24,183 bases of DNA from a virus, in the IMG/VR virus record IMGVR_UViG_3300034073_003551, positions 1 through 24,183 of that record, one strand, 5' to 3'. The notes below the pieces were generated by a model. It did no database searches, had not been told where the DNA came from, and was given only the letters and a program-made list of their open reading frames with translations. A program made the position numbers and the translations under genes. Position 1 is the first letter of the stretch. The number at the start of each line of letters is the position of its first letter. This document shows, piece after piece, positions 20-9,219 of this stretch.

Positions 20-210
20 TTATTGCGAAAAAAGGACCCGCAATTGAGAATCAGGAAGCGCTGCAATTGAGAATCAATACGGGCGAGAGTGATTCTCATT
101 CTCAGGGTATGGCGAGAATGGTTCTCATTTTCACGTGCAATTGCGACTGATTCTCATTTGCAAGGGGGAGTGGCTGCCCCTGTGATCGCTGCAATTGCGA
201 CTCATTCTCA
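20..210. repeat. Left array of Fur-box-like inverted repeats
   Basis: Four 15-bp sites resemble the 7-1-7 palindrome TGAGAATGATTCTCA: 84-98, 113-127, 142-156 and 196-210, with two mismatches each (last one plus the central base). Two half-sites lie at 45-53 and 68-76 inside an exact 14-bp repeat (40-53, 63-76). A 21-bp unit at 136-156 recurs at 190-210 with one mismatch. The first three full sites start 29 bp apart. The array lies 90 bp upstream of the rightward gene at 300. The consensus is close to the classical Fur box GATAATGATAATCATTATC. A Fur-type regulator is an inference; a phage DNA-binding protein is equally possible. Confidence 0.7.
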
Positions 211-2255: not shown

Positions 2256-2379
2256 CGTGCAGCACAGTGAGCCGGTTTGATCGCGTGGGGCATTGATGGG
2301 CACGCGGACTAGTTGCGAGCGTATGGACGCACCTAGGCAACGGCTCGCGATTGCGACCCATATATAAGGTCAGATCGTG

Positions 2380-2605
2380 TAAAAACGGTTCTCATTCTCC
2401 TGGGGGCATGCTGCGCCCTTGCTTATTGAAAATGCGTCGCAATTGCAATAGGTACCCGCACCTTTATTGCGAGTGATTCTCAGTTGCAGTATGCGTATTG
2501 CCGCATGCGAGAGCGATTCTCATTCTCATTCTTATTGCGAGTGATTCTCATTATCACCAACTCTGTGTGTGCGATTGAGGACTTGAGAATGATTCTCATT
2601 ATCAC
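2380..2605. repeat. Right array of Fur-box-like inverted repeats
   Basis: A perfect TGAGAATGATTCTCA palindrome lies at 2584-2598. The 19 bp from 2585 to 2603 match the classical Fur box at 16 positions. Weaker sites lie at 2468-2482, 2508-2522 and 2536-2550, with a half-site at about 2387-2394. A 19-bp unit, TTATTGCGAGTGATTCTCA, occurs exactly twice (2464-2482 and 2532-2550). The array contains no plausible gene. It lies upstream of the leftward cassette promoter and immediately before the 31-bp tandem repeats. Seen: the repeats. Inferred: binding of Fur or of a phage regulator. Confidence 0.75.
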
Positions 2606-2606
2606 T

Positions 2607-2730
2607 AAACCGACCTCGATCCGGTACAAATCCCTTTAAACCGACCCCTTGCAAGAACTTGGCACCTTAAACCGACCCCTCGCAAGAACTTTGCCCTTTA
2701 AACCGAATGCTTGCAAGAACTTACCGCAAA
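2607..2730. repeat. Four 31-bp tandem direct repeats (iteron-like)
   Basis: The word AAACCGA recurs at 2607, 2638, 2669 and 2700, exactly 31 bp apart. Copies two to four share most of TTTAAACCGACC, GCAAGAACTT and a trailing CCC; the first copy shares only the left part. The last copy runs over the stop codon of the leftward gene at 2721. No spacers separate the copies, so this is not a CRISPR array. Period and position fit replication iterons, an operator array or a partition site; none is proven. Confidence 0.75.
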
Positions 2731-3518
2731 ACGAGTTGAGAAAAAGTTCGATTGAATTCTTGCGTGGCAGTGTTGCGTGCAATGTCGAGGAAGGGGAATT
2801 TGCCGGTGTAGTTGGGGATTCTGCTTTCCGTCATTACCCGGTAATACCTGTTGCCCGGTTGACGGCGATCAACGAAGTAGATACCGGGCTTGGGTGATTG
2901 CGTGAAGCGACGACGGAAGTATGGCTCGTAGAGGCTCTCCTCATCAAGGTAGATGTAGTTGCTGAGGCTTTGATCATTGACGGGCGCTTCACCGCGTTGG
3001 CGGACCCCGTAGATGTCAGCCGAGCTGATGTTGCCTTTGAGTGCCGACAGGATCTGCGTGTACTGTCCGGGCGTCATGTTGCCGTAACGATTCAGCCGTG
3101 TTTTGGGGCTGCGGAGGTTGGCAATCATGATTTTGCCCCGTTGCCCAACATGCACATTTCTCCCTGTTGCGTTTTGAACGATCGTGTTTAGCAGCGCACC
3201 TTGGAAACGAGTTGGGTAATGCTTGCCGCCATAGATCTGGGGGAGCAAGTATTGAGCAGGAGCATTGCCGTTTGGAGCATCATCACGGATGAAGATCTTT
3301 GCTTCGAGCTGTTCTGTTGAAGATTTTTTGTAGAGGAAAGAGTTGACAGTGAAGGGAACAGGATTGCTGAATATTGATTTTGCTTGTGACTTCAATTCTT
3401 GTGATGCTGCGTAAACAGCTTTGTTGAGGGCAAGGCTGCCTGCTTTAGGAATTTGAACACGTTGCAGTTCGTTGATTTTACCGATCAGCTCTTCAGGCTT
3501 GAATTCGATTTCGATCAT
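2721..3518 (-). CDS. Phage virion structural protein (minor-tail/connector type)
   Basis: A 265-aa product starting at ATG 3518, chosen because AGGAGG lies 4 nt upstream (3523-3528) and the longer frame would run into a terminator. It resembles a common phage structural family found near head-tail connector genes and loosely like prophage minor tail protein Z. Family-like blocks are an N-terminal helix (KAGSLALNKAV), NPVPFTVNSF, an AKIFIRDD strand, PAQYLLPQIYGG, YGNMTPGQYTQILSAL and a C-terminal IARNTATQEFNRTF. It is separated from the early operon by a terminator (3544-3587) and ends inside the 31-bp repeats. Specific role uncertain. Confidence 0.55.
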   Translation of the reverse strand: MIEIEFKPEELIGKINELQRVQIPKAGSLALNKAVYAASQELKSQAKSIFSNPVPFTVNSFLYKKSSTEQLEAKIFIRDDAPNGNAPAQYLLPQIYGGKHYPTRFQGALLNTIVQNATGRNVHVGQRGKIMIANLRSPKTRLNRYGNMTPGQYTQILSALKGNISSADIYGVRQRGEAPVNDQSLSNYIYLDEESLYEPYFRRRFTQSPKPGIYFVDRRQPGNRYYRVMTESRIPNYTGKFPFLDIARNTATQEFNRTFSQLVLR

Positions 3519-3612: not shown

Positions 3613-3849
3613 CTAGTAGTGGACGTGGTGCTTGATGCCTCTGTACGTCAGATCGGCGTCAATGGTCGGCTGATCGTGTTTGGCATCTTGATAGGGCACA
3701 CCTCTGTATGCCTTGGCAAGAAGCAGTTGAGCGTTTTGCAGGCGCTGCTGGCGTTGCTGCTGCTGCTTGATGAGCTGCAGGTGATTGAGGATAGACATGG
3801 CGCTACGGCAGTAGTCGCAACCCCGTTCCCTGATGCGACCGATCTGCAA
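3613..3849 (-). CDS. DUF4278-like YRG-repeat small protein
   Basis: A 78-aa reading from TTG 3849, or 61 aa from ATG 3798 (MSILNHLQLIK). A glutamine-rich helix (KQQQQRQQRLQNAQ) is followed by two YRG units: KAYRGVPYQ and DLTYRGIKHHVHY. Paired YRGxxY units are the mark of DUF4278, a small family I associate with cyanobacteria; the role is unknown. The longer form includes a single CDYC pair. Which start is used is unclear, since neither has a good ribosome site. An overlapping serine-rich frame here is a shadow. Confidence 0.5.
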   Translation of the reverse strand: MQIGRIRERGCDYCRSAMSILNHLQLIKQQQQRQQRLQNAQLLLAKAYRGVPYQDAKHDQPTIDADLTYRGIKHHVHY

Positions 3850-3875
3850 CCCATAGGGTCGAACGTACTTTTACG

Positions 3876-8637: not shown

Positions 8638-9219
8638 TCAGTCGTAGATCGTGATTCCGTTGATCACCTGGGGACCAGCAGGCACGTGATCCTCGAGCAA
8701 AACGGTGTAGCGCTCATCCCGCAGCCACCTGAAAGCGTCAGGAAGGGGTGCGCACCACTCATCCTGCAACTTGGCTTGCTTGACCTGCTCCACAGCCCTT
8801 GCAGCCGCTTCTACGAGCCTCTGAGGGCTTTCCTCCCTCACAACACGACGCCACTGCTCGTACGCCTTGTTCTTGCTTTGGGAATTCGCCTTGATCGGTG
8901 CCCGCTGGTACTCGTTCCAGAAAATCAAAAACTCCTCGCTGTAGTCGGGCTTAACGCGCTTGTTCTTAGCCGTTTTTTCCGAGCTAACAGCTTTAATTGA
9001 TTGTTTAGAAGAAATATCTTCTTTAATAAAAGAAGAAGAAGAAGTAGAGGCTACGCTCGCTGCCGCTCGCTCCGCCAGCGTAACAGGCGTGTCAACTGCT
9101 TGCTCGAGCAAAAGGGCGCAAAACGCAGTCATAGACAGGCATTCGGGCTTTTTGACGAGCAACTTTTGATGTACGGACTCGGGAATTCGCAGAAAAAGGG
9201 ACTTTGCTGATGCTTGCAT
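8638..9219 (-). CDS. Replication-associated protein with RHH-like N terminus
   Basis: A 193-aa product, first gene of the leftward operon. The N terminus (SLFLRIPESVHQKLL, then a helix MTAFCALLLEQAV) looks like a ribbon-helix-helix fold. A low-complexity Ser/Lys linker (about 55-90) follows. The C-terminal part has FLIFWNEYQRAPIKANSQSK, AYEQWRRVVRE and PLPDAFRWLRDERY. This pattern (FWxxYPRK, WxxV, PxxxWLxxxRY) occurs at the C termini of phage replication initiators and helicase loaders of the O/DnaT type. It may load helicase or bind the origin. The gene lies just downstream of the candidate promoter at 9250-9278. Confidence 0.55.
   Translation of the reverse strand: MQASAKSLFLRIPESVHQKLLVKKPECLSMTAFCALLLEQAVDTPVTLAERAAASVASTSSSSFIKEDISSKQSIKAVSSEKTAKNKRVKPDYSEEFLIFWNEYQRAPIKANSQSKNKAYEQWRRVVREESPQRLVEAAARAVEQVKQAKLQDEWCAPLPDAFRWLRDERYTVLLEDHVPAGPQVINGITIYD

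Follow-up and report, generated by a model that had tools for sequence, protein, structure and literature searches.

An ordered array of conserved two-part sites behind a tail-like gene in uncultured cyanophage-like genomes, with a possible role in transcription control

The stretch of viral DNA analysed here (the window; 24,183 nucleotides, positions 1 to 24,183 of IMG/VR virus record IMGVR_UViG_3300034073_003551) contains a short array of direct repeats which, judging from its retention in related genomes, is a real, conserved cis-element. The array is tentatively annotated, at somewhat less than an even chance, as an ordered cis-regulatory site of fixed number, consisting of a first site (R0) and three bipartite asymmetric sites (R1 to R3) at a junction of transcription units, where a protein would bind and control transcription. 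The sites, their conservation, their order and orientation, their attachment to a stop codon and their independence from the replication module were observed directly. In a group of siphophages that is uncultured and probably picocyanobacterial, the array defines a conserved, putative control locus, and its position beside boxes that resemble sites for the Fur (iron) and LexA (DNA damage) proteins of the host means that infection could be tied to the state of the host.

In an exact-match scan of the window, AAACCGA was found on the + strand at 2607, 2638, 2669 and 2700, and GCAAGAACTT at 2651, 2682 and 2713 and nowhere else in the window, exactly as reported in the preliminary description, which had noted a second block in the last three copies. 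The array is the top tandem repeat of the window (TRF score 125, period 31), and its composite two-block pattern was matched 0 times in 100 shuffles of the sequence. The last GCAAGAACTT shares bases with the stop codon (TTA at 2721-2723) of the gene on the minus strand, which bears out the proposed overlap with the end of a structural gene; that gene is minor tail protein-like. Of the four 31-bp tandem repeats first described, three are like units, but the second half is missing from the first AAACCGA copy: R0 and R1-R3 have AAACCGACC in common, after which R0 runs on as CGATCCGGTACA. When relatives are compared, R0 is a distinct conserved site (AAACC-N9-CCGGTAC) and not a degenerate fourth copy. 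The coordinates are collected in Table 1.

Table 1. The array and neighbouring features of the window.
Feature	Position	Strand	Remarks
R0, divergent first site AAACCGACCTCGATCCGGTACA	2607..2628	+	left half like R1-R3; right half CCGGTAC
R1, AAACCGACCCCTTGCAAGAACTT	2638..2660	+	repeat finding, exact matches, alignment of relatives
R2, AAACCGACCCCTCGCAAGAACTT	2669..2691	+	repeat finding, exact matches, alignment of relatives
R3, AAACCGAATGCTTGCAAGAACTT	2700..2722	+	final bases overlap stop codon of minus-strand gene
Minor tail protein-like gene (phrog_1924)	2721..3518	-	ORF opens 3569, likely start ATG at 3518
Four Fur-box-like palindromes	2468-2482, 2508-2522, 2536-2550, 2584-2598	+	best copy TGAGAATGATTCTCATTATCA
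Inverted repeat GCGAGC...GCTCGC	2315..2348	.	beside CCATATATAAGG; sequence compared with relatives
cos end GGTAATTTCGAAC, right end of genome	1..13	-	contig ends of relatives

About 40 IMG/VR contigs were found to carry this array, always in one orientation, a finding that lends support to the general idea, put forward in the preliminary description, of a functional cis-acting array (an origin, operator or partition site). The exact 23-mer is present in 15 IMG/VR stretches and the degenerate unit in 38. When the inner gap was made one base shorter as a spacing control, two wider pattern scans gave one and twelve unrelated matches; the inner distance is strict, because the shortened pattern found just one unrelated match against 38 stretches. 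A variable-gap scan without preset spacing returned four new arrays (L116-L119), one chance match (L120) and otherwise arrays that were already known; the apparent match in L120 is a single hit, and the array is absent from it. Across 74 units of 25 representative arrays, the unit core reads AAACCGa-N4-YY-GCARGAACt; A-CC, GC and GAAC do not vary, and no purine occurs at the YY positions, the search pattern itself having demanded YY for one or more units of each contig. R0 reads AAACC-N9-CCGGTAC or CCGTAAC in most relatives, with constant inner spacing.

Across deep divergence, nearly every complete array consists of R0 and three units in one orientation; the array of genome G026 has one extra unit ahead of R0. 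In 32 arrays, the GAAC of the last unit is separated from the stop codon by 1-9 nt, mostly 1-2 nt, and the upstream gene is a homologue of phrog_1924 nearly everywhere. Genome G026 differs: its five-unit array follows a Mom-family DNA-modification gene instead of a tail gene (L093-L095), and two more units, 39 bp apart, form a second copy directly ahead of the start of the tail-like gene; apart from this second copy, exact copies are confined to the array locus in the genomes scanned. No nucleotide match to the 1.4-kb array region was found in the cultured phage collection. The array is without description in the accessible literature, and the group that carries it is uncultured and cyanophage-like.

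As a control site, the array would sit at a junction, with the upstream (replication/recombination) transcription unit ending on one side and, on the other, the region rich in Fur and LexA boxes, followed by the right-end genes and cos. The protein involved would be sequence-specific and encoded either by the host or in the conserved late module; it probably contacts AAACCG and GCAAGAAC of every unit, may assemble across three or four sites and, once assembled, could control transcription through or away from the junction as an operator or a roadblock. No DNA-binding regulator was found to be common to all eight near-complete array genomes. In intergenic location, fixed orientation and two-part asymmetric sites, the array resembles the stoperators of cluster A mycobacteriophages, which are intergenic and of fixed orientation. 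Stoperators are scattered through the genome and bound by an immunity repressor that the phage encodes, whereas the exact copies of the array occupy one locus (with a second two-unit copy in G026) and no repressor was found. The stoperator sites are asymmetric, and a phage repressor, which also blocks elongating transcription, recognises each as two parts (PMC9283540).

Several observations speak against a control site of this kind. The genes shared by all eight near-complete array genomes are limited to an HNH gene, the tail-like gene and structural/packaging genes, and a convincing promoter was not found. The spacing of the sites extends over all helical phases, which is unusual for cooperative DNA binding, and the adjacency to a stop codon together with the self-complementary core CTTGCAAG would fit an RNA element too. 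Such an element, possible but rather improbable, would reside at the 3′ end of the mRNA from the tail gene, where adjacent copies would pair through UCUUGCRRGGG/UUCUUGCRRGG into alternative hairpins, with switching between hairpins possibly controlled by ribosomes at the abutting stop codon. It would account for the array beginning at a stop codon nearly everywhere, for the sense-strand hairpin that nearly all adjacent copies can form through the self-complementary core, and for the variation of YY between C and T only, by which A-U or G-U pairs are kept on the sense RNA. However, the sense-strand hairpins, which seemed strong at first, are modest after correction by dinucleotide shuffles and are not sense-specific (mean z -1.1 sense, -1.85 antisense), A-to-G changes in GCARG occur without compensation in partner copies (L014, L116), and the invariant AAACCG is outside the stem. 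Because the shuffle-corrected stability is modest and the GCARG changes are uncompensated, a protein-bound DNA site is ranked first and an RNA element second.

The exact 31-bp step of the preliminary description holds in the window but is not general: unit spacings range over 17-63 bp among relatives, with values of 17, 23, 27, 29, 31, 33, 35, 37, 43, 47 or 63 bp. The spacing is odd in all of the distinct unit pairs (68/68), so that the linkers, which span -4 to 42 bases, have even lengths only. R0-R1 spacings run from 11 to 39 and are odd wherever R0 can be placed, R0 having been set by eye in a few arrays (L071, L116, L117 and L119) where the automatic R0 search is loose (26 for L116, 9 for L117). 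One array, L117, was considered as a breaker of the parity and was resolved, its 46 being 29 + 17. Mapped onto a tree of the tail-like proteins, the arrays require at least 37 length changes (10 + 15 + 12; 27 without R0), none of which altered the parity; the chance of this is about 2^-27 to 2^-37, assuming that odd and even indels are equally likely. The neighbouring Fur-like boxes show both parities, 14 of their 35 distinct spacings being odd.

The even-linker rule is simple and statistically strong, and ordinary models of protein-DNA spacing give no explanation for it; it is not a helical-face rule, because the spacings cover all helical phases. A new type of cis-element, the function of which is set by the parity of site spacing and not by length or helical phase, is an unlikely reading of the array. 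If it were true, dependence on parity would suggest recognition or mutation in two-base steps, or strictly symmetric pairing of strands.

It is distinctly unlikely that the array is an iteron-type origin of replication to which the phage initiator binds; the preliminary description offered the O/DnaT-like protein of 8638-9219 as a partner. The units are direct repeats of iteron-like size, and the GC content right beside the array is lower (0.32-0.48) in some genomes: 0.44-0.47 in the window and 0.32-0.41 in G007, with higher values in others. However, the array persists with three unrelated replication modules, namely an O-like initiator (phrog_270), a prim-pol/VapE protein with a helicase (G029 type) and an AAA_25 RepA-like protein (G016), the same tail-like gene and array standing behind each; the suggested partner can thus be replaced while the array remains. 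Every one of the eight near-complete array genomes has an HNH gene, the tail-like gene, terL and the portal, capsid and tail genes, and no other gene was found in all of them; terS was found in seven, the exception being G027, where the contig end may have cut it off.

The array of the window is also 5.9 kb from the O-like gene, whereas iterons are expected in or beside the initiator gene; those of lambda sit inside the O gene (PMC7466680). Like the O-bound lambda iterons, the array comprises about four direct repeats and belongs to a lambda-like phage, but it differs in its distance, its independence from the type of initiator and its variable, not iteron-like, spacing. No iterons were found inside the O-like gene. 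Cumulative GC skew, proposed earlier as a check for an origin at about 2.6 kb, has no turning point at the array; it turns at about 7900 (near the O-like gene) and at 420 (near cos). The independence of the array from the replication module and the turning of the skew elsewhere therefore argue against an origin at this site. The turn at about 7900 could mark the real origin.

Comparison of contig ends and gene families indicates that the window covers the right-hand part of the genome of an uncultured siphophage that is lambda-like and of cos type. Ten related contigs (G007, G010 and G028 among them) end at GGTAATTTCGAAC, two of them with small variations, and two near-complete relatives also start with it, terS following after about 172 bp. 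Window bases 1-13 are the complement of GGTAATTTCGAAC, and the left end of the window is taken to be the right cos end because ten contigs stop and two start at this sequence. A terminase search with PF03237 gave no match; PHROGs then gave terS and terL, the terminase genes of a near-complete relative matching the lambda-type families phrog_57 and phrog_15. Between cos and terS are short repeats, CTATTTcGCyTTAAA, as expected for cosB. A second cluster of Fur-like palindromes was observed near cos at window 83-158, between a DUF7227 gene and the genome end. The cos-side contig end of G027 (L096/L097) reads CCCTACACGACGCTCT, which resembles an Illumina adapter left in the assembly.

The cosB of lambda, R3-R2-R1, has three ordered direct sites in a cos phage, and the three sites of the array, fixed in number, are reminiscent of it. 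An accessory packaging site for terminase would also fit the presence of terS and terL among the few genes common to array genomes, but it is highly unlikely: the array is far from cos and terS (2.6 kb from cos in the window and about 1.5-3 kb in contigs showing the cos end) and does not lie between cosN and terS, where the interval of roughly 170 bp has short repeats of its own. Moreover, the Synechococcus phages S-CBS1 and S-CBS3, which are the nearest cultured cyanophages found (terL about 46%), have related terminases and, in the same place before the terminase genes, a gene distantly homologous to the tail-like gene, but no array after it. S-LBS1 is a freshwater relative (PMC6157547).

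It is scarcely probable that the array is an attachment or recombination site with R0 as the core (ACCGG-N7-CCGGT in some genomes) and R1-R3 as arm sites. The combination of an inverted repeat in R0 with direct repeats is what such a site would have, but several relatives have lost the inverted repeat, and none of the array-bearing records searched has a tyrosine integrase of family PF00589; only G014 and G015, which are without the array, carry PF00589. As for a plasmid-type partition site, the annotated genes include none that is ParA- or ParB-like.

The other side of the array is a non-coding stretch that in many relatives is rich in palindromes, both Fur-like TGAGAATGATTCTCA and LexA-like AGTACATTTGTACT. 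The latter fits the cyanobacterial LexA consensus AGTACWNWTGTACT (PMC3091678) and recurs in 16-bp steps in several relatives. The mix of palindromes varies between relatives and the array stays. No intrinsic terminator (a GC-rich hairpin followed by a T run) was found in the array region, where 0.8 would be expected by chance, and a promoter search of the region gave one weak match, equal to the chance number. In L008, L010, L085 and others, up to about six tandem 16-bp LexA-like boxes (AGTACATTTGTACYAT) are found upstream of the array, in the place where other relatives have Fur-like boxes.

The inverted repeat of the window (Table 1) reads GCGACCGT...ACGGTCGC in relatives and, together with CCATATATAAGG, is a possible promoter or leader of the leftward small genes. 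On the minus strand at window 3815-3868, a glutamine-II riboswitch (RF01704, over the gathering score) precedes a small DUF4278-like gene. In L028, a different repeat array (AAAAATCGCCATTCA / AAAAAATGGGCAT) occupies the same place, just past the stop near 540 of a distant tail-gene homologue.
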